NCBI GenBank assembly: GCA_017547165.1
Contig: JAFYQK010000001.1
Span: forward strand, 283,422 to 347,421
Length of the DNA stretch: 64,000 bases
DNA from: Bacteroidaceae bacterium
Lineage (GTDB): Bacteria; Bacteroidota; Bacteroidia; Bacteroidales; Bacteroidaceae
Direction: 5' to 3'
Shown: piece after piece, positions 38,339 to 59,905 of the stretch
How the letters are laid out: each line of letters starts with the position of its first letter
Numbering within the stretch: position 1 is the first letter of the stretch
Translations under genes and position numbers: made by a program
The notes under the pieces: generated by a model
What the model saw: the letters and a program-made list of their open reading frames with translations, nothing else
Told to the model about the DNA's origin: nothing
Database searches by the model: none

Positions 38339-40666
38339 TCATTCTGTTATCACCGTTGTTGGATTCTCCCTGAAACACACTTTTACTTTATGGGCAACGA
38401 GGGCGGTGACGATGAGGGCGATGAGTGTGGCGATGCCGAGGGCCGGCAGGATGCCAAGGGAGATCTGCAGGGCGTAGGTTTGCAGCCAGAGGGTCATCAG
38501 ATAGTAACCCACGCAGAGGCCTATGGTAGTACCGAGGGCAGAGATGATGCCGTATGTGCGGAGGGTGCGGCGCAGGCAATCCCTATAGTGGGCGCCGAAG
38601 ACACGGCGTATGGCTATGGCACGGCGCTGGCGCTGGAGGTCGGCACTCAACAGGGTTATCACTCCGAAGAGGGCAATGCCCAAACCCACTGCTGAGAGCA
38701 CGGAGTAGAGCCACAGGAAGTTCTGCTCCTTGCGGTACTTCTCGGCAATGAGGTCGCCATAGTTTACTACACGCACTGTTCCTGCATCGGGGTTGATGTC
38801 GTGACGGCGCAGAACCTCTTCCACGGCGGCAATGCCTTCCTTCTCCCTGCCGGGGAGTATGCGGAAGTAGAGTTGGGAATCTCCGTCAGAGCCGCCTAAA
38901 TCCTGGACATATCCTATCAGTTCGGGTTCTTGGTGCAGGTCGCGGGTGCAGAGGTCGAGCGTGCCGATAACTTCTTGTTGGCTACGGGTATTGATATATG
39001 GATTCTCTGGCGTTACCCCGTAATATGCCGCGGCATTGCTGCTCAGCAACACCTGTCCGTCCTGCCACTTGAATTCGCCCTGCATGGGTTTCCATAGGTT
39101 GGGTTTGATATCGAACAGGCGTATCGTCGCCTCGGAAAGTATCATCATGGTAAGGTTCTGTTCAAAACCATCCACATTGAAACCTATCGCCCATCCGCGT
39201 TCGAAGATGGGATGGTTCAATACGCAGGTGTCCACTGCCGAAAGGGCACACAGTTCTTGTGCAAACTCGTTGGTGTTTACCACCCTCTTTTCCTCATAAC
39301 TCTTGAAACGGAAGGTATATACCCTTTCGGGGTTCACGCCCAGGGCATCTTTGGTGACGAAGCGGATTTGTCTGCCACCGTTCCACACCAGGAACAGCAA
39401 CAGCACGCTCACCGCCACCTGCATCACGGCAAGGGGATAGTTCAATGCCGAGGGACGTCCCTGCGGAGCACCCTTCAGGGCGAGGCGGTGCCTGCGGTTC
39501 TGCACATATACGGGCAGCAGGCAGAGTGCCAGTTGCACAAGGAGGAGCGTGAGCAGACTGCCTGCGAACCAAAGGTACACTTCGCCACGGGTAATCTCCA
39601 TTCCCTCGAAATAGGTGTCGAACGTCAGTGTCATCAGCACAAAGGAGAGCACACCGATGGCGCAGAACATCAGCAGGGCCTCGGCCTGCAGGCGGAGCAG
39701 GGTGTCGCGGCTGCCACCACCCAGGCAGATGCGCAGGCGATGGTCGCTCCATCGGGCATCGGCAGCAGTGTTGAGCAATGCCAGGTAGGAGAACAGAGCC
39801 GAAAGAAGCAGCAGTGTGGAGAGGATGAAGAACACGCCGGGGTAGAAGGCCGCTTTCCAGAAACTTCCTTCGTTGCGCAACAACTCGCCCATGCGGAGCG
39901 GTACGAGCCGGAAACTTTCATAATCATCGTTGTATTGTGAACCGGCAAATCGTTCCAACGTCTCGTCCAGCGCGCGTTGCATCTGTTCGGGGTGTTTCGT
40001 GCGCACGAAGAGTTCCATGCTTTCGGGTGTGTAAGAATATCCTTTTGCAGGGGTGGGCTCCAGTTTCTGGTAATGATAAGCGGGAATCTCATTATCCGCT
40101 CCGACAGGCTTCTGTGCTTTTGTCACACCCACCACACGCAATGTCTTCTCGGCACCGCCTTCGCGCAGGAACTTTGCCGTCACCGTGGTGCCCACCAAGT
40201 CCGTGGTGCCGAAGAGGGCAAGGGCAGTCTTGTCGGTGAGTACCACTTCGCCATCCTCACGGGCAGGCCTGCCGGAGATGAACTCAAGGCGCATGACCTC
40301 GTAATATTCTGGGTTCACCCTCAGTATCGGCTGTGCTGGTGTCGTATCATTTGTGCTTATAATCTCAGCACCAGTATACATGATGAACCCCACTTTGGCA
40401 TCTTCAGGCGCATGCTCCAGGATGTCATGCCCCAGACTGTCGGTGAGATGGTAGGTGAAGGCTCTGAACCCCTGTGGCTCACTGGCCTGCACGCGATAGA
40501 CGTCCTCCACGTCGGGGACATGACTCGCCTCGTGTGTCTGCCTCCAGATGCTGGAAGCCGAAAACACGAAGGCAGTGAGGGCAAACGAGATGATGCCCAC
40601 GATAAGAATGCTTTGCCCCATATTGCGCCTTATGTGGCGCAGGGCTTGGAGAAGATTGTGATTCAT
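38339..40666 (-). CDS. Large FtsX-type ABC permease, fifth in the locus
   Basis: A 775-residue permease with two FtsX-like halves: a first membrane segment (about 19-38), a large periplasmic domain, three segments around 280-390, a further segment near 415, a second periplasmic domain, and three C-terminal segments ending at about 770. The coupling motif AIAIRRVFGAHYRDCL is present. It is the most diverged of the five permeases. It starts 7 bases after the preceding permease stop and is the last gene of the run. Confidence 0.9.
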   Translation of the reverse strand: MNHNLLQALRHIRRNMGQSILIVGIISFALTAFVFSASSIWRQTHEASHVPDVEDVYRVQASEPQGFRAFTYHLTDSLGHDILEHAPEDAKVGFIMYTGAEIISTNDTTPAQPILRVNPEYYEVMRLEFISGRPAREDGEVVLTDKTALALFGTTDLVGTTVTAKFLREGGAEKTLRVVGVTKAQKPVGADNEIPAYHYQKLEPTPAKGYSYTPESMELFVRTKHPEQMQRALDETLERFAGSQYNDDYESFRLVPLRMGELLRNEGSFWKAAFYPGVFFILSTLLLLSALFSYLALLNTAADARWSDHRLRICLGGGSRDTLLRLQAEALLMFCAIGVLSFVLMTLTFDTYFEGMEITRGEVYLWFAGSLLTLLLVQLALCLLPVYVQNRRHRLALKGAPQGRPSALNYPLAVMQVAVSVLLLFLVWNGGRQIRFVTKDALGVNPERVYTFRFKSYEEKRVVNTNEFAQELCALSAVDTCVLNHPIFERGWAIGFNVDGFEQNLTMMILSEATIRLFDIKPNLWKPMQGEFKWQDGQVLLSSNAAAYYGVTPENPYINTRSQQEVIGTLDLCTRDLHQEPELIGYVQDLGGSDGDSQLYFRILPGREKEGIAAVEEVLRRHDINPDAGTVRVVNYGDLIAEKYRKEQNFLWLYSVLSAVGLGIALFGVITLLSADLQRQRRAIAIRRVFGAHYRDCLRRTLRTYGIISALGTTIGLCVGYYLMTLWLQTYALQISLGILPALGIATLIALIVTALVAHKVKVCFRENPTTVITE

Positions 40667-40672
40667 AGGTGT

Positions 40673-43114
40673 TTATTCTTTTGCAATAATATCCGCAGGA
40701 TGTTGTTTTATTACTTTACGTACGTGGAGAGAGACTACGAGGAGGACGATGAGGGAAGTGATGCTTATGCTTAGAGCGAGGGGCATGACGGGGGATATGA
40801 GATGCTGTGGAATCATTTCCGATACTGCCCACTCCTTCAGGAACTGGCTGAAGAGGATAACGGCAGGGATGGCAAGTATGCTTGCCACTCCTATGAGCCA
40901 CAGGTAAAGGCGACCGAAGAGCAGGGCTATATCCCCTCGCTTTGCGCCATGTATCTTACGCAAAGCCACTTCCTTCTGTCTCGAACGGGTGTCGAGGGCA
41001 ATGGTGCTCCAAATTCCCATGAAGCAGATGACGAAACATACGGCTGAGAGAATCCAGGCACCGCGCTGCAGGTTGAGGAGTGCTTGGAGTTCCTCGGTAA
41101 GTGTGTCGCGTAGGTTGGTGACCGTTTCTCGCAAGGGAAGCGGATTGATGCGGCGCATCTCGTCCTTCAACTGTTGCATCACTTCGTGGTACATGCCCTC
41201 TTCGGGTTCAATGATAAATTGACCAAAAAGTCCATAGGGATTCTGACGGAAGATGGCAAGGTCATGAGATGAGAAGTGTTGGTGATTGTAAGGCAGCGTG
41301 GCAAACGTGCCGCCAACGGGCCATACTTCATAAACATCGTACCATGAGATGTAAAGACTGAGCGTTCCGTTTTTGATTACTCCTAAGGAGTCAAACTTAG
41401 CGTAGAGCGCCTCGTTGAGCACGATGCATTCTTTTCGTTGGTCCTCGGGCACGAACCATTTGATGGGGCGTTGCCAAAAGTCGAAGAAGGCGGTGTCGGT
41501 CAGGAAGAAGGTCTCGAAAAGAGTAGTACCAAGCGCCTCTTTAGCACCAGGCGTTTCTTCAATCTCTTTGAACGACATGAGCATCCTAGAATGTTCGATG
41601 GCACGCTTGATTCCCTTGCGGGGCATCTGCAAGTATTCTTTCAGCGCCACAAAGTCGTTGGCGTTGTAGGGGTCTATGGCAAGGCATTCCTGATAGTGGT
41701 CGTCATTTTCGGGAATGTTCTTTTGGTCCTTGACCAACCCTATGAACTGCGTGAATGCCAGTGCGCCCGAAAGGAAGACGAGGCTCACCACCAACTGAAT
41801 GCCCAGCATCGTATTGCGCAAGGAGTGCCCCGCATTGCGGTGTAATCCTGCCGCCAGGTTGGTGTTTGACTTGCGGATGCGACGGAGTGCCACCCACACG
41901 ACAAAGGCGCTCAGCAATGCCACGATGCAGAAGATTTGCAGAATCGTAGTGTTCTGACCATACACCACCCAGGCAAGGTCGTCAAACATTGTCCTGAAGT
42001 GCACTTCCACAAAATTGACCAACCAACTCATCAGCACCAAAGCCACTGTCAATGAAAGGGAAAGGACAAGAGACACCTCCGTCAAAAATAGCCCATACAG
42101 ACTCCATTTTGAGGCGCCATGCACCGTGCGTAGCATTACCTCGCGTCGGCGCATCTGGAATAGTTGCAACTGCATCTTGAGGAAACCCACAAGGGCTGCC
42201 AGCAGTACCATGGAACTGATCAGGTAAACAATGGTGCGCACCAGCAGCACAGACCCATTCTTTCGCTTATTCACCTCGCTCATTGACTCCACCTTTGCCT
42301 TCAGTCCCAAGGGTTGCAGGCGGAGATTTGCTGCCTGCTCCAGGTCTTTGGCGGTATAGCCTTCCTGCAACAGCACCTCGTATCTCCTGGCATAAAATTG
42401 CTCTACTGCTTTATGCTCACTACCTTTCATACAAAAGAAAGCCCAATTTCCGATAACGTCATTAGTGGACATCGTTTTCACCACATCAATCACCGTGTAG
42501 GTGTCTATAACTACGCGCTCCTCCTCTAAATTCAAATACTCCATGCGAATCTTAATGCCCACAGGATTCTTGTCTCCGAAGATGTACTTCGCCTGCGTTT
42601 CGCTCAACACCGCTTCATTATAATTCAGCACAGGAATCTTCTCGCCCGTTAGTGCCGAACGCGCTCCGCGGAAGTTAAGGTATTCGCGCATCGTGTAACT
42701 ATGCCTCATATCCATCTCTCTTTCCGTAGAGTCGTGAAATTCTATTATGATTTGAGACTCGCCATGCTGGTCGTCCACGTAGAACAGTTTTTCCACGCCC
42801 ACCATACCTCCGCCAGAGGTCAGTGCAGTGTGAATATCTTCAAGGATTCTTATTGTCTGAGTATTGAAAGCAACGCTCCCGTCCTCGGGATTGGGAGCAA
42901 TGTCTTCATGATGGAGCTTGACGAACGACATTTCATACGTGCGGTCGAAATAAGGCTCATCGCAAATGGCGGGATTTCCGAAATGTTTTAACACAAAGTG
43001 CGTAGCCGCCAGTGTGACCATACCCACCGCCAGCGCTGCTACGCTGACAAGGGTCTGGAACTTGTATTTCATGAGATTGCGGAGGGAGATTTTTAGATTG
43101 TGACTTATAAACAT
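40673..43114 (-). CDS. Large FtsX-type ABC permease, fourth in the locus
   Basis: An 813-residue permease starting MFISHNLKISLRNLMKYKFQ. It has the double-half layout with eight membrane segments and carries the coupling motif EVMLRTVHGAS in the first half and EVALRKIHGAKRGDIALL in the second. The first 40 residues are nearly identical to those of the third permease, which shows they arose by duplication. A 53-base gap separates it from the third permease. Confidence 0.92.
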   Translation of the reverse strand: MFISHNLKISLRNLMKYKFQTLVSVAALAVGMVTLAATHFVLKHFGNPAICDEPYFDRTYEMSFVKLHHEDIAPNPEDGSVAFNTQTIRILEDIHTALTSGGGMVGVEKLFYVDDQHGESQIIIEFHDSTEREMDMRHSYTMREYLNFRGARSALTGEKIPVLNYNEAVLSETQAKYIFGDKNPVGIKIRMEYLNLEEERVVIDTYTVIDVVKTMSTNDVIGNWAFFCMKGSEHKAVEQFYARRYEVLLQEGYTAKDLEQAANLRLQPLGLKAKVESMSEVNKRKNGSVLLVRTIVYLISSMVLLAALVGFLKMQLQLFQMRRREVMLRTVHGASKWSLYGLFLTEVSLVLSLSLTVALVLMSWLVNFVEVHFRTMFDDLAWVVYGQNTTILQIFCIVALLSAFVVWVALRRIRKSNTNLAAGLHRNAGHSLRNTMLGIQLVVSLVFLSGALAFTQFIGLVKDQKNIPENDDHYQECLAIDPYNANDFVALKEYLQMPRKGIKRAIEHSRMLMSFKEIEETPGAKEALGTTLFETFFLTDTAFFDFWQRPIKWFVPEDQRKECIVLNEALYAKFDSLGVIKNGTLSLYISWYDVYEVWPVGGTFATLPYNHQHFSSHDLAIFRQNPYGLFGQFIIEPEEGMYHEVMQQLKDEMRRINPLPLRETVTNLRDTLTEELQALLNLQRGAWILSAVCFVICFMGIWSTIALDTRSRQKEVALRKIHGAKRGDIALLFGRLYLWLIGVASILAIPAVILFSQFLKEWAVSEMIPQHLISPVMPLALSISITSLIVLLVVSLHVRKVIKQHPADIIAKE

Positions 43115-43167: not shown

Positions 43168-45582
43168 TTACTCCTTCGCAATCATCTCGGCCGGTTTTAC
43201 TTGCAGCACTTGGTGGAGATGGTAGCCTACGATGAGGAGGATGATGAGGGCGGTGAGGAGGAGGGCACCGAGGATGGGGAGTGTGGGGGAGAGACGCTCT
43301 GCCATACCATTGATAAAACCATTTCTTGCCCAGTCTTTCAGGAGGGTGTTGAAGAGGACAATGAGGGGCGTGCTGACGATGGCGGCGATGCCGATGAGCC
43401 ACAGATAGAGGCGGCCGAATAGCAAAGCAATATCCCATCGCTTGGCGCCGTGAATCTTACGCAGTGCCACTTCTTTCTGTCGCGAACGGGTGTCGAGGGC
43501 TATAGTGCTCCAGATGCCCATAAGGCAGATGACGAGGCAGATGCTGGAGAGTATCCACGAGGCATCACGCATGATTTCGATGAAGAAGATTTCATCGTCG
43601 AGCGCATCGCGCAGGTTGGTCACACGTCGCTCTAAGGGTTTTGGATTGATGCGTTGCAGGGTATCGGTGAGGTCGGAAAAGACGCGGTCGTAAGCACCCT
43701 TCTTGGGTTGGACAATAATCTCGGTCATCTCCTCGTCGCGCCAGTTGCCCAGGTGTACCACTTGGTACCTTTGCGAAATGCGTGTCCTATTCGCATAAGG
43801 CCAAGTGGAGAACGTGCCACCGATGCGCAGAGGTTGCCTGTCGATAGGTAGGAACCAACCATTGGCATTGAAGCCGTATCTTTCCATCATGGCATAGAGC
43901 GAGTCGTTCATCAGGATGCAATCGTGGCGCTCCTCTGGGGGAAGAATCCAGTTGATAGAGCGGTTCCAAAAGTCGAAAATAGCGGTGTCGTTCACCATGC
44001 ACTCGCGTATATAGACAGTTCCCTGTTCTTCGTCGGCCACGGAATCTTCTTGAATTTCCTTTGATTGGAGTAATTCGTGATTCATGGGGATGAAACGCTC
44101 CACGTCCTGCGCCTCTGTGCGCAAGTATTCCAGTAATTTAGGTGATTCTAAATAACTCTTGTAAGGGCGTACGATGATGCACTCCTTGTAGAAGTCATCA
44201 TTCTCCGGCACATTCATTTCCCTTAATGCCAATTCGCTGAAATGCGTCAAGGCAAGACTACCGCCCACAAAGAGGATGCAGATGGCTATTTGTATGCCCA
44301 GCATCGTGTTGCGCAGGGCATGCCCACGGCTGCGTTGCAACTGCATCGTCATGCTTTGGCGCTGGTGCACCATGGAGCGGACGGTGAGCCACACGACGAA
44401 GAAACTGATGAGTACAACAGCCAAAAGTATCACCGCCACACTTTCGTACACACCTTCTATGCGCCCCCCAAATTCATTTAAGTAAGGCGTGAGCGCGGCA
44501 TTGGCAAAGTCGATGAGCAAGGTGGCAAGAATGCCTGCCACGATGCCTGTAAACATGAAGGTGAAGAGTGTTTCGCAGGCAAAGAGGCGGAAGATGCTGC
44601 CGCTTTTGGCTCCATGCACACGTCGCAAAGCCACCTCGCGTTGGCGCATACGGAAGAGTTGCAACTGCATTTTCAAGAAACCAATCAGGGCGGCGGCGAG
44701 GATAAGCGAACTGATGAGGTAAACAATGGTGCGGGTAACACTCATGTGGCCCGTTTGCTCGTCTATCTTTTTACTCAGGGGTGTGAGGCGTGCGCTGAAT
44801 TGCGGGTCAAGCGTTTTCAGGCGGCGCGTCATCTCTGCCTCAACGTCCTTGGAGTTTATTCCTTCTTGCAAAACAAGACCATAATTGATATGGTAATAGT
44901 CCTTCGCTCCTTCCACATAGGTGTACATTCCGTCGCTCACGCCGTCGGCAATGCGCTCTGAGGTATAGACATCGCGGATGGTGAATGTTTTCCATTTGCC
45001 ATTGTGATTCATAAGCACGCTACAGCCTACGGGATTCTCGTTGCCAAAAATCTCCCTCGCATGCATTTCGCCGATGACGATTTCTTTATCGCCCAGCACG
45101 GGAATCTTCTCACCCGTCAGCGCCGAGCGGATGCCCCAGAAGTTGAGGTCCTCAGCCTGCGTCACATAATAATGGTATGCTCCCGTGCGTTCGCTTCCGT
45201 CAGGCAAGGTAAAGGTCATGCTTCCGCCCATAGTGCATCCGCCCAGGGAGGCATTGTGCGTCACTTTCTCCACACCGGGCAAGGGTCCGCCCGAGAAGAG
45301 CGCATCGTCCATTTCGGTGGTGATGCGAGTGAGAACAAACGTCCACTCTTGCGTACCATCCTCCTTGGTAATACCATAATTCTTTTGTCCGTTGCTGAGT
45401 TCAGCCACATACGTGCGCTCATAATAAGGTTCGTCAGCAATGGCAGGCGGTCCCATGTGTTTGAGCACAAAGTGCGTAGCCGCCAGAGTTACCATGCCCA
45501 CCGCCAGCGCCAAAACGCTGACGAGGGTCTGGAATTTGTATTTCATGAGATTGCGGTAGGCAATCTTGAGGTTGTGGGTCAT
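43168..45582 (-). CDS. Large FtsX-type ABC permease, third in the locus
   Basis: An 804-residue permease starting MTHNLKIAYRNLMKYKFQ, with eight predicted membrane segments and coupling motifs EVALRRVHGAK and EVALRKIHGAKRWDIALL. Both periplasmic domains are retained. It is the closest relative of the fourth permease over the membrane parts, while the periplasmic parts differ, which would suit different partners or substrates. The 40-base gap to the second permease holds CGGAAAA-type repeats. Confidence 0.92.
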   Translation of the reverse strand: MTHNLKIAYRNLMKYKFQTLVSVLALAVGMVTLAATHFVLKHMGPPAIADEPYYERTYVAELSNGQKNYGITKEDGTQEWTFVLTRITTEMDDALFSGGPLPGVEKVTHNASLGGCTMGGSMTFTLPDGSERTGAYHYYVTQAEDLNFWGIRSALTGEKIPVLGDKEIVIGEMHAREIFGNENPVGCSVLMNHNGKWKTFTIRDVYTSERIADGVSDGMYTYVEGAKDYYHINYGLVLQEGINSKDVEAEMTRRLKTLDPQFSARLTPLSKKIDEQTGHMSVTRTIVYLISSLILAAALIGFLKMQLQLFRMRQREVALRRVHGAKSGSIFRLFACETLFTFMFTGIVAGILATLLIDFANAALTPYLNEFGGRIEGVYESVAVILLAVVLISFFVVWLTVRSMVHQRQSMTMQLQRSRGHALRNTMLGIQIAICILFVGGSLALTHFSELALREMNVPENDDFYKECIIVRPYKSYLESPKLLEYLRTEAQDVERFIPMNHELLQSKEIQEDSVADEEQGTVYIRECMVNDTAIFDFWNRSINWILPPEERHDCILMNDSLYAMMERYGFNANGWFLPIDRQPLRIGGTFSTWPYANRTRISQRYQVVHLGNWRDEEMTEIIVQPKKGAYDRVFSDLTDTLQRINPKPLERRVTNLRDALDDEIFFIEIMRDASWILSSICLVICLMGIWSTIALDTRSRQKEVALRKIHGAKRWDIALLFGRLYLWLIGIAAIVSTPLIVLFNTLLKDWARNGFINGMAERLSPTLPILGALLLTALIILLIVGYHLHQVLQVKPAEMIAKE

Positions 45583-48316: not shown

Positions 48317-48532
48317 ACATACCCCCTCCGTTTCGCTCGTCCCCCTAACTTAGAGGGACAGTTTGTTACAACTGATATTTGTGCGCCAGCCTACTGTCCC
48401 TCTGAGTCAGGGGGACGAATGAGGTCTTTTGAAAAATGACTAAATGTCATTTTGTGCCTCATGAGGGGAGCACTACCCAGTGCGACGCTAGGGCCAGAGG
48501 TGAGCATAGCGACGGAGGGGGTATGTTAGTTT
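48317..48532. repeat. Cluster of GC-rich repeats between ATPase and second permease
   Basis: A CATACCCCCTCCG...GTCCCCCT...AGAGGGACAGT unit (48317-48362) is followed in inverted orientation by ACTGTCCCTCTGAGTCAGGGGGACGA (48393-48418), then an inverted partial copy of the neighbouring element (48455-48492) and a GACGGAGGGGGTATG end (48510-48524). No coding character. Confidence 0.85.
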
Positions 48533-49231: not shown

Positions 49232-50182
49232 AGTTGTAAAGGACCCCTCCCTTTTGAAACGGAAAAGTGAAAACGGAAAACGGAAAACTGACTTGCGGAG
49301 CTTGATAAGCCAGAGCGACTGTTTATCTTGATGAACCGCAGGTGAATAATAACCGTAGGTCGACGTTAAGTCAAGTCAAATCAGAAAACTGAACCGAAGC
49401 AGAACCTTTAGGTCGATGTCCCGTTTTCACTTCCGTTTGTTTGGGAATGGGGATTTTTTAATGAGTTAATGAATAATGTTTATAATTACTTTTATTTTGG
49501 TTCAAATCAATTTGTGTCTAATCTCACACGGAATCCACGGAATCCACAGATTTACCTTTCATCTGAGAGAACATCATGCTGGCGCTGGAATTTTTACGCA
49601 GCTTTGCGCGTAGAATCCACAGAATGGCACATGTTTCACAGTGCCCTTGTTCTCCGTTGAACGTTCAATGTTAATTGTTCTCACCGCGCCAGCCGTCGTA
49701 GCGAAGCTTGCGACAAATTCTGTGGATTCTTTTTTCATTTTCTTATGTTTGTTGTATTGTCGTCATTGAATAGTTCCGTGTATTCGGTGAGTTCTGTGTG
49801 AGGTTTGTTGAGAGCGGTTATGTGTTTTTTGCACGCAGATTACGCCGAGAGCGCAGAGTTTTTTATTTTCCTTGGCGTATTACGCTGGCGCTGGAGGGGG
49901 TCGCAAACTTCGTTACGACGAGAGAGCGCAGAGGGGAGATGTAAGCGAGGCAGTTTAATTACCTTCTACATTGCTTTTGTGACTCAGTTTCGGACACAGC
50001 GTGCCGTGTCCCTACTGCTATTGTAACTGACTGTCCCTCTAAGTTAGGGGGACGAGCGAAGCGGAGGGGGTATGTAATAGTTTTCCGTTTTGACATTGTC
50101 GAGCCTGCTCCCGCTTGGCATTGAAGTAAACTTCATTGCTCTCGCTTACTCGCAGCCTTCACCTTTCCGTTTTCCGTTCGCA
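49232..50182. other. Repeat-rich gap between ATPase and first permease
   Basis: No credible gene in about 950 bases. It holds CGGAAAA units (49256-49290), two CACGGAATC units near 49530, a 21-base inverted repeat with two mismatches (49694-49714 and 49900-49920, CGTCGTAGCGAAGCTTGCGAC type), GCTGGCGCTGGA twice, a GTCCCTCT...AGGGGGACGAGCG...GGAGGGGGTATG unit (50022-50076), and CCGTTTTCCGTT near 50163. It looks like an accumulation of short repeats. Confidence 0.7.
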
Positions 50183-52852
50183 TCACTCTTTCTTCACCAC
50201 CTCCGCCGGATGGATGTGGCTTACTTTCCATATCTTGTGGCTGATGGTGAGGAGGGTGACGGCCATGACGATAAGGATGGAGAGGAAGAGGTAGAGGGTG
50301 AGCCAGTCGAGGTCGTTGGCGATGCTGTCATCCAGGGCAAAGGTGTAGAACGTTGCTATTATTGCCATGGACACGATGATGACGATGATGGCACTGATGA
50401 TGAGCAGGCGCAGGTAATACCTGCCGAACAGACGCATGATGTCCCACGAGTGGGCACCATGAATCTTGCGCAGTGCCACTTCCTTCTGTCGGCCACGTGA
50501 TTCAAGAGAGATTGCCGAGTAGACACTTGCTACGATGCAAAGGATGGAGATGATAACAAGTAGGAAACACAATTCGCGCATCAGTTCCAGCACGCGTATG
50601 CCCTTGAACCACTCTTCATACAGGTTGTCCACAGGCACGTCGTTCATGTTGCCTGGCTGAGCCTCGCGCCACAGGTCGGTTAACGCATCTTCGACCTTGC
50701 CATACTTGCCGTCTTTGGGGAAGATGAGGTAGTAGTCGGTATCGTGGCTATAGGCACGAAGTTCTTTCAGGTTGTCCTTGTCCTGCCATGTTATGTCCGG
50801 TTCTATCATCCAGAACGACGGTGTGCTATGCGAACCTGGACGATAGCCGATGAGAGCAGGAGCATAGCCAATGAGAGTATAGGAACGGTCCTTGTAAAGC
50901 CGGCGTGTCTGCACATCGCTGCTTATGTGCAAGTCCCATTTCTCACGCAGACGCTCCACCTCTTCGGTACGAACGTATATGGCACTGACATGCTTCTGCA
51001 GATTCTCGTCTTTGGGTTTGTCTTCGCTGATTTCTATGTCGAGCAAGTCGAAGAGTTCTTCATCGGTGGCGAGGAAACTATAAGCATGACTTTTGATGCT
51101 TCCGTCGGTGTTCTTGTACTTGAGCGTATGCGTTATCAGTCCTTCGTCCACCTCGGGACCTTCGGATTCGCAACAGAAGTAGATGCACTTGGATATGTGC
51201 TCTACATCCTTGTTCTGTGCTATCTTGTTGGCAAAGTCGGGTACTCGAATGTCCATTGTCGTCATGCGTGCCATAAGTGTCTTGCGGTATGGCGCCTTGT
51301 TCTCCGTATGGCTTCCGTATTCCTGTTCGGCAATTACGTTAAGGGCATAGAAGGCACCCAACACCGCAAAGGTGAGCATCATGCTTATGGCAAACTGAGT
51401 GCCCAACATCACGCTTTGTCCTTTGGTGCGAGGATGTCCGCTACGGCCTACTCGCATGCCCACGGGACTGTGCAACTGGCGGTACAGGGAAATGAAAGCC
51501 ACCACTAAGGAGCAAAGTAATGTGGCAAGGCAAATCCACATGCCGGTCTCCACAATCATGTCAACATCGAAGAGGATTTCATCGTTCAACCTCTGTATAA
51601 TGGACATGGCATAACGCGACACTTGTACGGTGATCAACAACGTGGCTATGGCCGTAAAGGCGAACATGATTGCCATTTCCGTTACGAGTAGCAGGAACAG
51701 GTGTCGGGGCTTTGCTCCCATTGTTCGGCGCAGAGCCATCTCACGGGCACGGAGCGAGAAGAGTTGCAACTGCATCTTCAGGAACCCCATGGCACCTATG
51801 AGCAGTACACTGCTTCCAAGCAAAAGCACAACACCTATTATCGTCAGATAGAACAAACCATCGTCCGTCCAATCCCATGCGTTCCATCGCAGAGCCACAA
51901 AGTATTCGGGCAAGGCACCTGCCAGTTGTTCGCGCAACTGTTGTGCCGTGTAGCCCTCAGCCAGTTCTATCTGCAGGCCATTGATGGGGTTGTATTGCGC
52001 TTCAGCGATGCAGTTCTTCTGGCAATAGATGACGGCATTGTTATAGGAATCCTCCATGCGTTCGGATATGTTCACCACATCGCGTATGGTGCGCTGGCTA
52101 CCGTATATTTCGGTAAGTATCCTGAAACCACGAGGGTCCACACCTTTGCCAAATACCTTATCGCGGAGATCGTCCGTTATAAGCACGTCGCCTTCGTTCA
52201 GTTCGGGTATCCTTTCGCCCGTGATGGCCGAACGGTATCCGAGGTAATGGTATCTTCGTGGCGAGCACTGGGCATAGCGGGCAAGGTATGTCTTGGGTTG
52301 TTCTGTGTTGTCCTCGAATTCGAAGTTCATGTGCAACACACTGACAATACCATGAATCTCCTTCATGGCAGGCAGTTTCATGCTATACAGCCTGTCGATA
52401 AATGCGTTGGTGATGTTCACCATGGGCAATTGTCTGTCTGCTCCGTTGGCATCATGTTTGGCGGTGTTCTTGAATTCCTCTTCGCTCATCTCGTAGATAG
52501 TGAACACCGGCCTGCCTTGGTCAATAGAACTGTAATATAAGTTGCGTGCAAAGTTGAACATAATATGCACGGTGATGGCAAAGCACACCACACCCACGGC
52601 AAGGCAGGCAATGGAAATGACGTTCTGCACTTTATATTTCAGCAGATTGCGCCATGAGGTAGCGAGGGAGTTGGCAAGAAGTCCTCCCCATACCCAGCGG
52701 ACCCTCCCCCTTACCCAGTCCTCGCGTTGAACTGGGAAGTTCGCCCCTCCCGAGGTACAGAAGCACATTCGGTGCTTCTTCTGAAGACCTCGCTCGCCAC
52801 AGGGGACAGGAGAAGGATGTGCTGGGGATTGAGATTGATTGTGGTTTTGCAT
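50183..52852 (-). CDS. Large FtsX-type ABC permease, first in the locus, N terminus altered by a repeat
   Basis: The frame gives 889 residues from ATG 52852. The first 55 residues or so are encoded by a GC-rich repeat, and sequence related to the other permeases starts only at SLATSWRNLLKYKVQ. No ATG, GTG or TTG is in frame between ATG 52768 (MCFCTSGG, inside the repeat) and that point, so the protein either carries a repeat-encoded extension or uses an unusual start. The rest is intact: eight membrane segments, coupling motifs EMALRRTMGAKPRH and EVALRKIHGAHSWDIM. It belongs with the second permease. Confidence 0.85.
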   Translation of the reverse strand: MQNHNQSQSPAHPSPVPCGERGLQKKHRMCFCTSGGANFPVQREDWVRGRVRWVWGGLLANSLATSWRNLLKYKVQNVISIACLAVGVVCFAITVHIMFNFARNLYYSSIDQGRPVFTIYEMSEEEFKNTAKHDANGADRQLPMVNITNAFIDRLYSMKLPAMKEIHGIVSVLHMNFEFEDNTEQPKTYLARYAQCSPRRYHYLGYRSAITGERIPELNEGDVLITDDLRDKVFGKGVDPRGFRILTEIYGSQRTIRDVVNISERMEDSYNNAVIYCQKNCIAEAQYNPINGLQIELAEGYTAQQLREQLAGALPEYFVALRWNAWDWTDDGLFYLTIIGVVLLLGSSVLLIGAMGFLKMQLQLFSLRAREMALRRTMGAKPRHLFLLLVTEMAIMFAFTAIATLLITVQVSRYAMSIIQRLNDEILFDVDMIVETGMWICLATLLCSLVVAFISLYRQLHSPVGMRVGRSGHPRTKGQSVMLGTQFAISMMLTFAVLGAFYALNVIAEQEYGSHTENKAPYRKTLMARMTTMDIRVPDFANKIAQNKDVEHISKCIYFCCESEGPEVDEGLITHTLKYKNTDGSIKSHAYSFLATDEELFDLLDIEISEDKPKDENLQKHVSAIYVRTEEVERLREKWDLHISSDVQTRRLYKDRSYTLIGYAPALIGYRPGSHSTPSFWMIEPDITWQDKDNLKELRAYSHDTDYYLIFPKDGKYGKVEDALTDLWREAQPGNMNDVPVDNLYEEWFKGIRVLELMRELCFLLVIISILCIVASVYSAISLESRGRQKEVALRKIHGAHSWDIMRLFGRYYLRLLIISAIIVIIVSMAIIATFYTFALDDSIANDLDWLTLYLFLSILIVMAVTLLTISHKIWKVSHIHPAEVVKKE
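52682..52812. repeat. GC-rich repeat element, copy 2 (5' end of the first permease)
   Basis: It contains GACCCTCCCCCTTACCCAG, CTCGCGTTGAACTGGGAAG, CCCCTCCCGAGG, a GAAGCAC / GTGCTTC hairpin and GAAGACCTCGCTCGCC, the same order as 48114-48232. It lies inside the open frame of the first permease, in a different reading frame from that of the other copy. Confidence 0.85.
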
Positions 52853-53264
52853 ATTTGTGATGATTTATGTTTATTGTAATAACGGGATTGGAGGTTATTT
52901 TGTTACATGGTCGTGTTTCATTTCCTTGCCCTCCATCAAAACTGGAGGGCAAGGGCGTCTTCTAACCTAATTTATAACCTTTTTCAACATCTTTTAATTA
53001 TTGGCTTAGGGGGTGTTTTGTAGAGTCAAGATTGTCATACCCCCTCCCCACTTCGTGGTACTCCCCCTGTCTCAGAGGGAGAAAGTTGGATGCTATTGTA
53101 ACTGACTGTCCCTCTGAGTCAGGGGGACGAGCGCGGAGCGCGGAGGGGGTATGTAAATTATTGTTTATACATTGACTGGTGTCATCTATCAGTTAGTAGT
53201 AACCACTCCCCGCCCTTGGGAGGGGCTGGGGGAGGGTCCGGAGACTGGATTGTTTATTATTAAC
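52853..53264. repeat. Repeat-filled gap between HlyD and the first permease
   Basis: Contains a perfect 11-base hairpin CCTTGCCCTCC / GGAGGGCAAGG (52924-52954), a CATACCCCCTCC...CTCAGAGGGA unit (53036-53084), an inverted GTCCCTCTGAGTCAGGGGG...GGAGGGGGTATG unit (53096-53154) and an ACTCCCCGCCCTTGGGAGGGG unit (53206-53240). No gene is seen. Confidence 0.8.
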
Positions 53265-54515
53265 CTAATTTATAACCACCTCCTCTACATCTCCCAATCT
53301 GTCATAGCCGCTCACTATTACCTGGTCACCGGGGTTGAGACCTTCGATAACCTCGTATTGCTCGGGGTTCTGGCGACCTATCTTTATGTCCACACGGCGT
53401 GCCACATTGCTGCCTTCCTCCATGCGGTAAATCCAACGGCCACCGGTCTTCTGGTAGAAGTCGCCACGAGGTATGATGATGGCCTGTTCGGGTTGGCCAA
53501 GTTCTATCTTCACACGGTAACTCTTGCCCAGGCGTATGTTCTCGGGGATGGAGTCGATGAAGAGCAGGTCGGTGTCGAACTTGCGGTCCTTGACCTCGGG
53601 GATGACACGGCTGATGCGCAAGGGGAAGGTGTCCTGCTTCTGAATGACGGTGGCAGGCAGACCGGCATGGATGCGCTCGACATAGTATTCGCTCAGTTGG
53701 GTGTGTACCTTGTACTGGTTCATTATCTTCAGTTGTCCTATCATGGCACCGCCACCTACGGACTGACCGATGGTAAGGTTGATGTGTCCCAACTGTCCGT
53801 CCTGGGGTGCACGGACAATGAGGCCGTCTATGCGCCTTTGTGCATTCTCCAGCTTGCGTGTTGCCGCCTGACGGTCGGAAACAATCATCTCGCGACGCAG
53901 GATGGCGGTGACGGAGTCGTGGCGAAGGCTCTCCATCTGCAAGAGCAGTTTCTGGTGCTCGTGCTTATAGTCTTCCTCGGCTATGGTGAGTTCGGCACGG
54001 CTCTTGATGCCCATGGAGAACTCCTCGCGGCTCTGGGTGAGTTTTCTTTCGAGGCTTGCCAACTGATGGCGTTGCTCCAAGGCTTGCATGTTGAGCGAGA
54101 TGCTCTTCTGCTCCATCTGTATCTCCTGTTCGCGGAGGTTGCGCTGGGTCTTTTCCCATTGCTCGCGCTCTTCCTGTATGGTGCGCATGAGTTCGGGATT
54201 GTTGAGCACGAGGATGGTGTCGCCACGGTGTACCATGGCACCCTCTTCGCGGACAATCTTTTCGACGAAGCCACTCTCGAGGGCATTGATCTGTATGGTC
54301 ATGATGGGGTGCACGATGCCTTCGGTTTCGAGGAACTCCATGAAGGGGGCTTCCTGAACGGAGGCAATCTTGACACTCTCCGACTTGATGCTCTGACGGC
54401 GTGGCGAGAGTGCCACATAGATGGTGTAGGCAACGATGCCGGCAAGTACAAGGCATCCAAGGATGTGCATGCGGTATTTAACATACCAGGGGCGGGGAGG
54501 GAGTTTGATGTCCAT
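53265..54515 (-). CDS. HlyD-type periplasmic adaptor
   Basis: A 416-residue adaptor with an N-terminal anchor (about 13-31), a split lipoyl domain (INALESGFVEKIV and QDGQLGHINLTIGQSVGGGAMIG), a long coiled-coil hairpin (about 95-210, e.g. EREQWEKTQRNLREQEIQM) and C-terminal barrel domains. It connects the inner-membrane permease to TolC. It follows tolC with a 97-base gap containing an inverted repeat and is part of the sigma-54-controlled run. It differs clearly from the adaptor at 31.2 kb. Confidence 0.93.
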   Translation of the reverse strand: MDIKLPPRPWYVKYRMHILGCLVLAGIVAYTIYVALSPRRQSIKSESVKIASVQEAPFMEFLETEGIVHPIMTIQINALESGFVEKIVREEGAMVHRGDTILVLNNPELMRTIQEEREQWEKTQRNLREQEIQMEQKSISLNMQALEQRHQLASLERKLTQSREEFSMGIKSRAELTIAEEDYKHEHQKLLLQMESLRHDSVTAILRREMIVSDRQAATRKLENAQRRIDGLIVRAPQDGQLGHINLTIGQSVGGGAMIGQLKIMNQYKVHTQLSEYYVERIHAGLPATVIQKQDTFPLRISRVIPEVKDRKFDTDLLFIDSIPENIRLGKSYRVKIELGQPEQAIIIPRGDFYQKTGGRWIYRMEEGSNVARRVDIKIGRQNPEQYEVIEGLNPGDQVIVSGYDRLGDVEEVVIN

Positions 54516-54523: not shown

Positions 54524-54666
54524 AGGACCCACCCCCGTACCCCTCCCTCTATGGAGGGGAGTATATACAATAAGGAGGATGAGGTCTTGGTTTGAGGTTA
54601 GTAAATGTTATTTTATTTTCTGTTGTAACTACTCCCCTCCATAGAGGGAGGGGTAAGGGGGAGGGT
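54524..54666. repeat. Inverted pair of GC-rich repeats between adaptor and tolC
   Basis: The two arms (54524-54561 and 54628-54666) match over about 38 bases with few mismatches; the core is CCCCTCCCTCTATGGAGGGG in each. The right arm lies inside the last codons of tolC. The layout, two inverted copies about 65 bases apart, resembles a miniature element or a strong hairpin. Confidence 0.85.
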
Positions 54667-56163
54667 CTTGAGTTGTTCAGTTATTGGAATATTATGCTGA
54701 AAATCATACCCTGTCATTGAGCGGAGGGTGTAGTATAGGCGCCAGAAGGTGCTCATGGCAGAGAGATAGGAACGGCGGGCATTGTTGCGCTCGGAGATGG
54801 CATCGTTGAGGTCGAGAAGGGAACTTTCGCCCATGATGTAGAGGCGCATGGCCACGGTGTGACGGTGCTCGGCACGACGACCGGTGAGTTGGGCTATGTG
54901 TACCTTGCGTGCCTGCATGTTGAACTGGGAAACGAGTTTCTGCACATTCTGGCGGAAGTCCTCCATGCCTTGCTCTGCCGTAATCTCGGTGAGTTCCTGT
55001 TGTGAGCGTGCCACACGCACCTGACCCTTGCCACGACCCCAGTCGAGGATGGGCAGAGAGAGGGAGATGCTGCCATACTCCTGGGTGAGTGGGCGATGAT
55101 AGGCAGATGCTATGGTGCTGCCCGTCTGGGAGAGACCGAACTGAAGGTATATGTCGGCCTTGAGACCTGCATTTGCCTTGGCACGGGAGAGGGAACTCTG
55201 CGCTTCGCGGCGTATGCGCTCGTAGTAGACAGGGTCTGGGCTGTTTTCCATGGCCAGGTCGAGGGCTTGTGCGTAAGGAACCTCGAACTCTGGCACCGTG
55301 TCGGGCATGACGAGGCGTATGGGAGTGTCCTGGGCAAGGCCAAGGAAGGAACGGAAACTCTGCATCTGTTCCTCGAGGGATATCTCGGCATCCATGGCAG
55401 AGGTTTCCTCGCTGAGGCGACGAATCTCGAGCTGAAGCATCTCGTTCTCGGTGATGGTACCTATCTTGTATCTGCCCTGTGCCATGCGATAGAGAGTGTC
55501 GGCGCTGGCGAAGTTGCTTCGTGCCATTTCCAGGTCGCTCTTTGCCGTGGCGAGGTTGAAGAAATAGGAGCAGGTGCTGGCAGAGACGAGTTCGATGGTC
55601 TCGGCATAGCTTTTCTTTGCCTCGGTGTAGCGCAAGGGTTCGATGCGCTTGTCCCACTTTAGCGAGTTGTAGCCGAATAGACTCTGGCTATAACCTATGC
55701 TTATGGGCACGGTGCTGAACATGTTGGTGTGGTTGCTGAGCTCGCGATGATAGTTGGCGGTGCTCTTTACGAAGAATGTACCTCCCGTCCAACTGATGTT
55801 CTGATTGATGCTTAGGCTGAGGTCGGCACCCAACTGACTCTGGCGCAGGTAGAGCGAACTACCATCGCTCTGGGTAATCTTGTTTATCTGATTGTTGATA
55901 TATGGAGAAGAACTCAATGTGACACTAGGCAGATAGTTGGCACGGAAATTGCGATAGTTCCAATGCTGGGAGAGGAACGAATGGCGTGCGCTACGTGCCG
56001 TGGGCGATTGCTCGAGAGCCAGGGAGATGGCTTGCTGAAGGTCGAGCACCAGGGTGTCCTGAGTCTGTGCCTCTCCTGTAATAGGGGCGATGAATGTGAG
56101 CAGTACACACAGGATGGAAGGCCTGATGCACGATTTGTGGTTGAGTATGAAGTTTATGTTCAT
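54613..56163 (-). CDS. TolC-family outer-membrane channel protein
   Basis: A 516-residue protein with a signal peptide (about 1-32) and two repeats of the outer-membrane efflux domain (long helices and short strands; ISLALEQSPTARSARHSF, FRANYLPSVTLSSSPYI, LDLAMENSPDPVYYERI, LPILDWGRGKGQVRVARSQ). It would form the trimeric exit duct. The C-terminal LPLTPPSMEGSSYNRK is encoded by a repeat and is probably not part of the original protein. The gene is first in the run and lies 50 bases after a predicted sigma-54 start site. Confidence 0.93.
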   Translation of the reverse strand: MNINFILNHKSCIRPSILCVLLTFIAPITGEAQTQDTLVLDLQQAISLALEQSPTARSARHSFLSQHWNYRNFRANYLPSVTLSSSPYINNQINKITQSDGSSLYLRQSQLGADLSLSINQNISWTGGTFFVKSTANYHRELSNHTNMFSTVPISIGYSQSLFGYNSLKWDKRIEPLRYTEAKKSYAETIELVSASTCSYFFNLATAKSDLEMARSNFASADTLYRMAQGRYKIGTITENEMLQLEIRRLSEETSAMDAEISLEEQMQSFRSFLGLAQDTPIRLVMPDTVPEFEVPYAQALDLAMENSPDPVYYERIRREAQSSLSRAKANAGLKADIYLQFGLSQTGSTIASAYHRPLTQEYGSISLSLPILDWGRGKGQVRVARSQQELTEITAEQGMEDFRQNVQKLVSQFNMQARKVHIAQLTGRRAEHRHTVAMRLYIMGESSLLDLNDAISERNNARRSYLSAMSTFWRLYYTLRSMTGYDFQHNIPITEQLKTLPLTPPSMEGSSYNRK

Positions 56164-56222: not shown

Positions 56223-56238
56223 TGCAAATATCGTGCCA
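56223..56238 (-). promoter_or_regulatory. Sigma-54 (RpoN) promoter of tolC
   Basis: The minus strand reads TGGCACGATATTTGCA, an exact match to the sigma-54 -24/-12 consensus (TGGCACG, four bases, TTGCA). Transcription would begin near 56212, about 50 bases before the tolC start. The sigma-54 activator gene lies divergently next to it. Confidence 0.88.
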
Positions 56239-56293: not shown

Positions 56294-56338
56294 GTGTGCG
56301 AAAACGAACATAGGTGTGCGATATCGCACTTGCGCACA
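56294..56338. promoter_or_regulatory. Candidate activator binding sites upstream of the sigma-54 promoter
   Basis: A perfect 14-base palindrome GTGCGATATCGCAC (56316-56329) is flanked by the half-sites GTGTGCGAAAACG (about 56294-56306) and TGCGCACA (56331-56338). It lies about 80-90 bases upstream of the -24 element, the right distance for an enhancer-like site of an NtrC-type activator. Confidence 0.65.
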
Positions 56339-56653: not shown

Positions 56654-58009
56654 ATGGAATGTAGAGGCAAGATATTGATTGTGGATGACAATCAGGATAT
56701 TCTCCTGTCATTGAACATGCTGCTGAAACCCTGGGTGGAGGCTATACGAGTGATTAGCACCCCGGAGCGTATAATAGAGTTCATGGATAGTTTCCAACCT
56801 GACGTGATTCTGTTGGACATGAACTTCCGCAAGGACATGGTGAGTGGTGAGGAGGGATATGAATGGCTGGCGCGCATATTGGAGCACGACCCAACGAGCG
56901 TGGTGGTGTTCATGACGGCATATATCAGTACGGAAAAGACGGTAAGGGCCATCAGAGCAGGAGCACTGGACTTCATTGCCAAACCTTGGGACAATAAGAA
57001 GATGTTGGAGGTGGTGCACTCTGCCGTGGATATGAAACGGAGCAAGATGGCGCAGATTCAAGCTCAGGAATCTGAAGACCAAAAGGGAGCGGAGACATTG
57101 GCCGATGGAAGCAACTTCATTGGCGAGTCTCCACAGATACTGGAACTAAAGTCGCGCATGGGCAGGGTAGCAAGAACCGATGCAAATGTTCTGATAACCG
57201 GAGAGAACGGTACGGGCAAGGATGTGCTGGCAAGGGAATTGCACAGACTTTCCAAAAGAGGCGACCAGCCTTTCGTGTCCATCGACCTTGGTTGTGTGCA
57301 CGAGCAACTGTTTGAGAGCGAACTGTTCGGGCATGTGAAAGGGGCCTTCACCGGTGCACATACCGCAAAGCAGGGCAGGGTTCAGCAGGCAAACGGCGGT
57401 ACGTTGTTCCTGGACGAGATAGGAAACCTGTCTTTGCCTATGCAACAGAAGTTGCTCACCGTGATAGAGAGGCGCGAGGTGTCTCCCGTAGGTTCAAACC
57501 AGGTGCAGAGGGTGGACATACGCATAGTGGCGGCAACGAATGCCAATCTGCATGAACGTGTGGCGGAGGGAACTTTCCGCGAGGACCTGCTTTACCGTCT
57601 GAACACTATAGAGATGCATATTCCCCCATTGAGAGAAAGGGGTGAAGACATAATGCTTTTAGCAAGGCACTTCCTTGCCCGTTATGCCGAGAAGCATGGG
57701 GGAGAGGTGAGGGACTTCACTGCTCGCGAGGAGGCCAAACTGATGGCGCATTCCTGGTATGGCAATGTGCGCGAGCTTCAGCATAGTGTGGAACGATGGA
57801 TAATAGACCCTCATGCTCCCCTCGTAACAGAGAGCATGAAACAAACAAAGCCAGAGAGCATCTACGATACGCTGAATCTGGAGGACATAGAGCGTCTGGC
57901 AATACGCAAGGCTTTGGAACAAGCCAATGGCAACATGAAGCAGGCTGCCGAACTATTAGGCATCACACGCTATGCGTTGTATAGGAAGATAGACAAGCAC
58001 GGGATTTAA
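56654..58009 (+). CDS. Sigma-54-dependent response regulator, NtrC type
   Basis: A 451-residue regulator. The receiver domain covers about 1-120 with phospho-acceptor Asp near 55 (VILLDMNF) and acid pair IVDDN. The AAA+ domain contains Walker A GENGTGKD, the sigma-54 contact loop GAFTGA intact (GHVKGAFTGAHTA), Walker B LFLDEIG and a conserved arginine region. The C-terminal Fis-type helix-turn-helix reads GNMKQAAELLGITRYALYRKI. Together these make a functional enhancer-binding protein. It is divergent from tolC, whose promoter is of the sigma-54 type, so that operon is its likely target. Confidence 0.97.
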   Translation: MECRGKILIVDDNQDILLSLNMLLKPWVEAIRVISTPERIIEFMDSFQPDVILLDMNFRKDMVSGEEGYEWLARILEHDPTSVVVFMTAYISTEKTVRAIRAGALDFIAKPWDNKKMLEVVHSAVDMKRSKMAQIQAQESEDQKGAETLADGSNFIGESPQILELKSRMGRVARTDANVLITGENGTGKDVLARELHRLSKRGDQPFVSIDLGCVHEQLFESELFGHVKGAFTGAHTAKQGRVQQANGGTLFLDEIGNLSLPMQQKLLTVIERREVSPVGSNQVQRVDIRIVAATNANLHERVAEGTFREDLLYRLNTIEMHIPPLRERGEDIMLLARHFLARYAEKHGGEVRDFTAREEAKLMAHSWYGNVRELQHSVERWIIDPHAPLVTESMKQTKPESIYDTLNLEDIERLAIRKALEQANGNMKQAAELLGITRYALYRKIDKHGI

Positions 58010-58010
58010 G

Positions 58011-58581: not shown

Positions 58582-58629
58582 TCGTACTATCTGTTTTCCT
58601 AGTTTTCCAATTTCACTTTTTACATTTCT

Positions 58630-58691: not shown

Positions 58692-58699
58692 TAATAAAT

Positions 58700-59905
58700 A
58701 TGAGTATCTGGCAGAATTTGTTTTACAATAAAAGCACACGGCGGCTTAGGCAGATGTTGGAGTCGGTGCGCATGAGGGATTTCAGCTTGCAATACTCTCT
58801 GGAGCATCTGCACGGCGAGGAACGACGTATGGCTGAGGAGATAAATGCCGTAATACGCGAGTTTCGTGAGTCGGAACACCAACGTGTGAGTGATTCGCAT
58901 TTCTATGATGCCATGCTCTCCAAGGTGGATGCCATTCTAATTGCCACGGACGAGAACGGACGTGTGCGATGGATGAACAAGGCTGCCATAGAGGGCTTGT
59001 GCGGTTTCCGATTCGACAACCTTGACCAGTTGGCTGTGCTTCATCATACATTGCCCCTGCAACTGAGAGGCCTGAAACGTGGAGCGTCGCAACTGGTATC
59101 GTATGTCAGTAAGGAGGGCGAGGAAAGGCAGTATGCCGCATCGCGCACACAAGTGTTCGTAAGCGGTATACCTTATATATTATATAGCCTGCAGAGTGTG
59201 GCAAGTATTCTGGAGCAGGGGGAGATTGAGGTTCAGCAGAAACTTATCCGTGTACTGACGCATGAGATAATGAACTCGCTGGCTCCAATAGTATCGCTCT
59301 CCAACACCTTGGCGGAGAATCTTACAAGCGAAGTGGCTGTAGAGAGATACCGCGACGAGGAGGTGCAGATGGTATTGTCTACCATAAGCAGGCGTGCCAA
59401 CGGATTGATGGATTTCGTGCAGAGGTATCGCATGGTATCGAATATTCCACACCCTGATTTAGAGAATGTTAGCATTGGGAAGTTGATGGAAGACTTTCAG
59501 TGTATGTGCGCCTCTGTTCTCAGGGAGGACTGCCATGTGGAGTATGACGTGCAATGTGCCGAAACCTTTATGCGACTGGATTCTTCGCAGATAGAGCAGG
59601 TGCTGCTAAACCTGATGAAGAACGCTTTGGAAACAGAAGCGACAAGTGTAAGGGTGAAGGTGGCTCTGTCCGAAAACGGCAGACATGTGGTAATGTCCGT
59701 AGAGGACAACGGAGGCGGCATATCGCAGGAAGTGGTGGACAATATCTTCACACCATTCTTTACCACCAAGGAAGGCGGACAGGGCATTGGTCTGGCCGTA
59801 TGCCGACAGATAGTGAGCAACCACGGTGGGTTGATAGGTGTGGAAAACAAAAGCTATGCCGACGGAAGCAAAGGCACACGCTTCACCGTGCGTCTGCCGA
59901 TGTGA
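58700..59905 (+). CDS. Soluble sensor histidine kinase
   Basis: A 401-residue kinase with no membrane segment. A helical N-terminal part (1-65) precedes a PAS-like domain (about 70-175, LIATDENGRVRWMNKAA). The dimerisation/phosphoacceptor helix RVLTHEIMNSLAPI has its His near 188, and an HATPase domain follows with N-box NLMKNALE, DNGGGIS and GGQGIGLAV. Its cytosolic location suggests it senses an internal cue. It is the likely partner of the adjacent NtrC-type regulator, although the two genes are now separated by the four-helix-bundle cassette. Confidence 0.95.
   Translation: MSIWQNLFYNKSTRRLRQMLESVRMRDFSLQYSLEHLHGEERRMAEEINAVIREFRESEHQRVSDSHFYDAMLSKVDAILIATDENGRVRWMNKAAIEGLCGFRFDNLDQLAVLHHTLPLQLRGLKRGASQLVSYVSKEGEERQYAASRTQVFVSGIPYILYSLQSVASILEQGEIEVQQKLIRVLTHEIMNSLAPIVSLSNTLAENLTSEVAVERYRDEEVQMVLSTISRRANGLMDFVQRYRMVSNIPHPDLENVSIGKLMEDFQCMCASVLREDCHVEYDVQCAETFMRLDSSQIEQVLLNLMKNALETEATSVRVKVALSENGRHVVMSVEDNGGGISQEVVDNIFTPFFTTKEGGQGIGLAVCRQIVSNHGGLIGVENKSYADGSKGTRFTVRLPM

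Follow-up and report, generated by a model that had tools for sequence, protein, structure and literature searches.

How can an exporter locus make use of five large permeases when it encodes a single ATPase? This question is raised by ten genes in a 64,000-nucleotide stretch (hereafter the window) of contig JAFYQK010000001.1, from a Bacteroidaceae bacterium whose draft genome (GCA_017547165.1) measures 2.26 Mb and is 84.5% complete. The explanation that we consider likely is a shared, co-induced sigma-54 tripartite ATP-binding cassette (ABC) exporter chassis with alternative double-size permeases (P1-P5). The genes have the order, strands and coordinates given by a first-pass annotation of the DNA, with the kinase and activator genes divergent from the row TolC-HlyD-P1-ATPase-P2-P3-P4-P5:

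58700..59905, forward strand: sensor histidine kinase (Pfam HATPase_c; PAS match below cut-off; no transmembrane (TM) segment by hydropathy)
56654..58009, forward strand: NtrC-type sigma-54 activator (Pfam Response_reg, Sigma54_activat and HTH_8, i.e., receiver domain (REC), AAA+ domain with GAFTGA, and Fis helix-turn-helix (HTH))
54613..56163, reverse strand: TolC-family outer-membrane channel (Pfam OEP, PF02321)
53265..54515, reverse strand: HlyD/MacA-type periplasmic adaptor (Pfam HlyD_3 and lipoyl domains; top NCBIfam model DarC, below cut-off)
50183..52852, reverse strand: P1, double MacB/FtsX-type permease (Pfam FtsX twice; start uncertain)
48557..49231, reverse strand: sole ATPase, MacB/LolD/DarD type, 224 amino acids (aa) (Pfam ABC_tran)
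45623..48253, reverse strand: P2, permease, sister of P1 (Pfam FtsX twice; start uncertain)
43168..45582, reverse strand: P3, permease (Pfam FtsX twice)
40673..43114, reverse strand: P4, permease, sister of P3 (Pfam FtsX twice)
38339..40666, reverse strand: P5, divergent permease (Pfam FtsX once and an N-terminal MacB_PCD)

The exporter would be a dedicated two-component, sigma-54-inducible pump of the MacB/type VII kind, in which the regulator pair, TolC channel, HlyD adaptor and one ATPase form the shared chassis and the permease set is variable. Upon a signal, the kinase would phosphorylate the NtrC-type activator. The activator would bind to two palindromes (starting 91 and 71 bp ahead of the -24 element) and open the sigma-54 promoter of the exporter genes. 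An ATPase dimer would dock on any single double permease to give a complete inner-membrane pump, which would work like MacB, taking substrate from the periplasm or the outer leaflet of the inner membrane and expelling it by way of the adaptor and channel that all permeases share. P1-P5 would then be alternative substrate modules that are expressed together. If this is true, the energy module, adaptor and channel of an ABC exporter can serve as a platform for many interchangeable permeases, and many pumps should fail together when a single small ATPase gene is lost.

Single ATPases among variable numbers of permeases

Gene order was compared in related genomes, as the annotation had proposed, and the same plan is present in Bacteroides, Phocaeicola, Parabacteroides, Mediterranea and other Bacteroidales: a kinase and a regulator, usually divergent, followed by TolC, HlyD and permeases around one ATPase. 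In the adaptor search, 47 of 101 genomes had a match at E ≤ 1e-10, weaker matches being other adaptors. In a scan of named genomes, covering the best 80 loci of a larger set, the nearest named adaptor records were mostly from Bacteroidales. We annotated 121 loci, the present one included; 117 remained after dropping the duplicates L202, L206, L218 and L146, which were retained in the earlier per-locus counts and promoter-module scans. One ATPase was found in 74 of the 117 clusters, none within the fetched stretch in 43, and two in no cluster at all.

Permease numbers were obtained from the 45 loci that have an ATPase and are not cut off downstream. Seven of these contain no permease, 14 contain one, and the remaining 24 contain two (7), three (7), four (4), five (3), six (1) or seven (2). 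Among the 14 loci with one permease, five carry no flag for an upstream cut either. Extended loci reach ten permeases with one ATPase in Bacteroides oleiciplenus and at least 11 with one in a metagenome-assembled genome, where the row is cut by the end of the stretch; the numbers are seven and one in both B. ndongoniae and P. plebeius and four and one in P. vulgatus. The position of the ATPase within the row varies among loci. The system is common in Bacteroidales, and five permeases is mid-range. These counts uphold the earlier proposal of one ATPase for several permeases, which would share it physically. The present ATPase keeps the Walker A, signature and Walker B motifs.

The array permeases might instead use several ATPases encoded elsewhere, with the local one serving only one or two of them. 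A 67%-identical ATPase exists in the source genome, and each of 21 searched relatives has 1-8 ATPase matches at E ≤ 1e-80. However, a permease is also present in all 20 stretches that were fetched around other ATPases in the same genomes, no cluster holds a second ATPase, and the displaced ATPases of P. gordonii and P. acidifaciens, described below, carry the enhancer-promoter of the array. We regard dependence on several ATPases as quite unlikely.

The 67%-identical ATPase belongs to a second, smaller system of the source genome (L133, G000:C23), with a double permease, a divergent REC-Fis regulator lacking an AAA+ domain, and a kinase with a predicted TM segment. In the paralogous stretches L247, L244, L251 and L260, half-size MacB-like permeases stand in rows, accompanied by one or two ATPases.

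A conserved sigma-54 promoter module

Three candidate regulatory elements precede tolC:

56316..56329, reverse strand: upstream activator palindrome 1, GTGCGATATCGCAC, starting 91 bp before the -24 element
56296..56309, reverse strand: upstream activator palindrome 2, GTTCGTTTTCGCAC, starting 71 bp before the -24 element
56223..56238, reverse strand: sigma-54 promoter TGGCAC-GATAT-TTGCA, located some 60 bp ahead of the tolC start codon (ATG)

The tolC promoter is the only sigma-54 site without mismatches in the window. With up to two mismatches, 41 sites were seen versus 23 expected, so the weaker sites carry little meaning. The combined module consists of a sigma-54 site (at most one mismatch) and two palindromes (at most three mismatches each) at 89-93 and 69-72 bp. 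A scan of 2.69 Mb gave 69 such modules, spread over 57 loci, against none in five block-shuffled sets. The type of regulator is reflected in its distribution: 48 of the 60 loci with AAA+ in the best-matching regulator carry the module, versus none of the 22 where the regulator lacks AAA+; one short regulator that was checked consists of REC and Fis HTH only. Six loci without a regulator in the fetched stretch also carry the module. An RpoN gene is present in the source genome. Sigma-54 control of the exporter genes, which the annotation had claimed, thus has strong sequence support from the -24/-12 promoter, the two palindromes and the occurrence of the module with AAA+ regulators.

We tried, and rejected, a stricter consensus for the promoter (GG and GC exact, 10 of 11 letters): of the 58 loci with a full-length activator, the source included, only five gave a hit, as did 2 of 559 control genes. 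Because reading of the intergenic regions showed TTGA or TTGT at -12, the relaxed motif of fixed geometry was adopted. It was chosen after seeing part of the data, and the genus-wide search given below was done afterwards. The -12 element of relatives is often TTGA or TTGT, with TTGA in Bacteroides and TTGT in others.

The activator is indeed of the NtrC type, with an intact GAFTGA, a Fis HTH and a receiver domain. Among the AAA+ regulators, the sigma-54 contact loop reads GAFTDA in 55 and GAFTGA in five, the present one being among the latter. A nitrogen-type circuit, as suggested earlier, is not supported: the activator scores 357 bits on the ntrC equivalog model, below the cut-off of 559, and the sole module without mismatch stands before tolC. 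Switching between permeases is not supported either. One module was found for the row, and internal permeases in relatives carry copies of the same module; therefore, co-induction is predicted.

The description of the kinase as cytosolic agrees with its hydropathy, which predicts no TM segment. Among 53 homologous kinases beside an AAA+ regulator, 47 have a predicted N-terminal TM segment. The six without are the present kinase and those of L145, L147, L152, L179 and L186, and in these loci the kinase may have come to sense a cytosolic signal.

Displaced ATPases and orphan permeases

In the source genome the module occurs once without mismatch, before tolC; the other match has three mismatches and lies in an unrelated coding frame. 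A search of 15 genomes gave 28 matches, eight of them with three mismatches, and since a reversed control pattern gave five matches, those with three mismatches are possibly due to chance. Two of them were inspected, the one in the source genome and that of an orphan permease in B. fragilis. Across 99 genomes of the B. fragilis genus, 55 sites (at most three mismatches, strict 91-bp spacing) were found in 36 genomes, while the reversed pattern gave none. The genes behind 26 of the 55 sites were examined, and 25 sites stand at the 5' end of this exporter's genes. A weaker site in B. bouchesdurhonensis (G112:C1:3784190), with no exporter gene nearby, was taken as chance. The analysis assigns, in abundant human gut bacteria, a sigma-54 activator dedicated to the exporter, along with its likely binding sites and a large part of its predicted regulon.

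Copies of the module are found in front of individual exporter genes. Among array permeases, separate copies occur in B. fragilis (two), B. oleiciplenus (one), SIG135 (two), P. acidifaciens (one) and others, and displaced ATPases have one in P. gordonii, 21.6 kb from the array, and P. acidifaciens, at 6 kb. The B. fragilis orphan permease lies with its module on another contig, with no ATPase, adaptor or channel within about 8 kb (fetched stretch, 19.5 kb). Its counterpart in G197, of the same genus, is 92% identical and is 1.1 Mb away from a site resembling the B. fragilis tolC site. The 16 kb fetched from G144 encode TolC, HlyD and the ATPase but no permease; one with the module lies on a different contig. 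Judged from this co-regulation, the displaced and orphan arrangements would be difficult to account for if the ATPase and permeases did not act together in trans.

Permease architecture

The permeases have 775-889 aa and two MacB/FtsX halves each, with the ATPase on a separate chain. Hydropathy of P3 places periplasmic regions at about 41-284, between TM1 and TM2-5, and at 447-669, between TM2-5 and TM6-8. A profile built from 40 such permeases matches the MacB structures 5lil and 5nik as well as the solved periplasmic domain 3is6 (E 4e-21). With single-sequence Pfam searches, FtsX was found in all five permeases and MacB_PCD above cut-off in P5 alone. Because 14 of the 45 loci not cut off downstream hold just one, a double permease is probably the whole transmembrane unit.

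The relations among the permeases are as annotated. P1 and P2 are 53% identical and P3 and P4 43%, with tree supports of 0.93 and 0.96, and P5 is more distant (15-17% identity to the other four). Same-locus pairs make up 15 of 64 cherries in the permease tree; permeases that were cut or shorter than 650 aa were excluded from the tree and conservation analysis, and those shorter than 450 aa from the locus counts. Such sister pairs would be expected if the permeases form hetero-complexes (P1+P2, P3+P4), like LolC+LolE, and are not alternatives. This seems improbable to about the same degree as the use of several ATPases, since loci with a single permease and with three, five or seven occur, the ATPase gene separates P1 from P2, and each protein has two FtsX/PCD-like halves, so that a single chain may correspond to a pair such as LolCE or MacB. 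The numbers of half-size permeases in paralogous clusters are even in L247 (P. vulgatus; eight with one ATPase), L260 (six) and L259 (two). Even numbers of half-size permeases in these clearest cases, alongside any number of double ones, fit the view that a double permease equals a pair, although the odd numbers in L251 (11), L244 (nine; both rows start at the stretch edge) and L256 (five) weaken this inference.

Conservation across 195 permeases is among the highest at the predicted coupling motifs (R..E..LR..GA), including R313, G324, R701, E704, R708 and G712. These residues lie between TM2-3 and TM6-7, the site of ATPase docking in known type VII structures. In P5, the usual Glu of both predicted docking motifs is replaced, by Asp and Ala; across the 195 permeases the first is replaced in 41 and the second in seven (two of these being gaps). 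The altered motifs of P5 and the tandem sister pairs are what one would expect of an ordinary multidrug pump with decaying duplicates, in which most permeases are redundant leftovers of tandem duplication. Yet all five reading frames are open, orphan copies retain the promoter module, and the docking motifs are conserved in diverged permeases while periplasmic domains diverge, which makes decay very unlikely.

Divergence of the permeases on a conserved chassis

Whole arrays were compared for 23 loci picked by hand, giving 18 pairs (sharing members) with adaptors 80-99.9% identical. Over these pairs, median identities were 84% for the adaptor, 79% for the channel, 93% for the ATPase and 88% for the activator, versus 41% for the best-matching permease, and permeases were less alike than the adaptor in all 18. 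For instance, B. faecis and B. congonensis share 92% identity in the adaptor and 98% in the ATPase, with 43-78% in the permeases. The adaptor of L144, on a partial contig, is 98% identical to that of the source, and the permease in the P1 position only 51%. Comparison of the permease periplasmic domains, also proposed with the annotation, showed that they are more diverged than the membrane domains in 32 of 37 non-redundant pairs. In a stricter test, both periplasmic domains were lower in identity than both membrane domains in 46 of 70 pairs.

That the permeases diverge fast while the chassis is conserved suggests a quickly changing substrate, e.g., antimicrobials in gut competition. Because the permeases, and within them the periplasmic domains, change fastest, the substrates are most likely amphiphilic or peptide-like toxic compounds. 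A wider interpretation, which in our view could equally prove right or wrong, is that the system is the export counterpart of group II energy-coupling factor (ECF) transporters. One ATPase-adaptor-channel chassis would energise, in trans, an open-ended and rapidly exchanged permease repertoire (up to 11 or more, some unlinked) in one module-defined regulon, with the permeases as fast-evolving substrate recognition, probably in an arms race with gut antimicrobial or bacteriocin-like compounds. A weak lead to function comes from a gut metagenome clone with two overlapping open reading frames (ORFs) that gave E. coli salt tolerance; one ORF resembles an ABC permease from Prevotella that has MacB_PCD and FtsX domains (PMC5780487).

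Weighing of the shared-chassis model

Several observations weigh against a shared, co-induced chassis. The gaps of 303-951 bp around the ATPase gene leave a single transcript unproven, and single-permease loci could have further permeases elsewhere. The exact promoter geometry is lacking in 12 of the 60 AAA+ loci (L068, L069, L072, L083, L084, L090, L145, L147, L196, L198, L203 and L205; L145 and L196, for instance, show its parts at different spacings), and 63 of the 99 genomes of the B. fragilis genus have no strict-module match. In G144, the remote permease reads as two ORFs, as does NtrC. Given its altered docking Glu residues, P5 may be weakly coupled to the ATPase.

Separate ATPases near each permease in relatives had been named in the annotation as a finding that would speak against sharing. 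The 117 clusters give no such case, but among the paralogous stretches, L241 of B. fragilis has the order P-ATPase-P-ATPase-P, with two ATPases and three permeases, and L260 has two ATPases among six half-size permeases. These ATPases are more distant (68-69% and 60% identical, respectively), and the promoter module was found in none of the 20 paralogous stretches. The C23 ATPase of the source genome, which has its own permease, could also cross-serve array permeases.

Relation to known systems

The locus shares with tripartite MacB-type exporters an FtsX-type permease with a MacB-like periplasmic domain and an adaptor and channel that are encoded together. The ATPase fused to a single 4-TM permease that characterizes MacB proper is absent. 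MacAB-TolC (type VII) likewise has an adaptor, a TolC channel and an FtsX-type permease with a periplasmic core domain, whereas here the ATPase is separate, the permeases are double-size, several permeases occur per ATPase and control is predicted to be by sigma-54. The macAB genes are reported to be PhoPQ-regulated (PMC8277102).

The LolCDE equivalog models stay below cut-off, with 227/308 bits for LolD and at best 27.5/362 for LolC/E. All five permeases match the ADOP double permeases (TIGR03434), which have a similar duplicated layout, at 35-93 bits, far under the cut-off of 622. DarBCD, the darobactin exporter, likewise combines a separate ATPase, a double permease and an HlyD adaptor; it has one permease. 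DarD and DarC are the top NCBIfam models for the ATPase and adaptor, which raises the possibility of a related secretion system for ribosomally synthesized and post-translationally modified (RiPP-like) peptides. We consider this unlikely. The scores remain below the equivalog cut-offs (ATPase, DarD 289/375; adaptor, DarC 142/450; permeases, DarB at most 34/700 bits), no biosynthetic gene was seen in the window, and none of the 20 ORFs of the window that were run against Pfam matched radical SAM. Neighbouring permeases lie a median of 24.5 bp apart, small precursor ORFs not having been searched systematically.

Sharing of an ATPase has precedents. In group II ECF transporters, one energising ATPase serves several membrane partners. 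The same is reported for MsmK sugar importers and MceG (PMC4519317, PMC9947336), and in the literature searched we found ATPase sharing described for importers only. In contrast, the shared-chassis model concerns an exporter, in which the adaptor and channel would also be common.

A regulatory link at the family level is already in print, since a 2025 study (PMC12316311) reports that COG0577 permeases of Bacteroidia are enriched for sigma-54 regulation. Its available text gives genome-wide statistics, without arrays, a single ATPase, a dedicated activator or enhancer geometry. In the open PubMed Central literature, with subscription journals mostly outside it, no description was found of multi-permease single-ATPase exporters, dedicated activator geometry or in-trans orphans.

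Intergenic repeats and neighbouring genes

The intergenic gaps among P2-P5 are 6-53 bp. Larger gaps, with palindromic repeats inside, separate P2 from the ATPase (303 bp), the ATPase from P1 (951 bp) and P1 from HlyD (412 bp). The true starts of P1 and P2 are uncertain because the first ~50 residues of their ORFs are read from repeat-rich DNA. Repeat analysis gave three features, none with an assigned strand:

53036..53154: palindromic repeat at the HlyD/P1 junction
50013..50075: half palindromic repeat at the P1/ATPase junction
48317..48421: palindromic repeat at the ATPase/P2 junction

Within the incomplete genome, the repeat core was seen in the present locus alone (four matches, up to two mismatches). 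Similar copies occur at the HlyD/permease junction of the close relative L144. An invertible switch through the inverted repeats that flank the ATPase (48317-48371/50021-50075) was considered; the L144 pair sits between HlyD and the permease, and the repeats are kept as an observation.

The region between the activator gene and the kinase gene contains GAAAACGGAAAA repeats and, among them, an ORF (58222-58581) for a PF05635 protein (23S rRNA intervening-sequence protein, a four-helix bundle). A second such four-helix-bundle ORF (37551-38198), below the Pfam cut-off, lies past P5. The ORF at 36785-37426 matches Kinase-PolyVal (PF18762), the kinase of polyvalent proteins, and adjoins a sigma-70-like ORF (36024-36515). 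Elsewhere in the window, positions 27931-31166 hold a conventional set of an ATPase and two half-size permeases.

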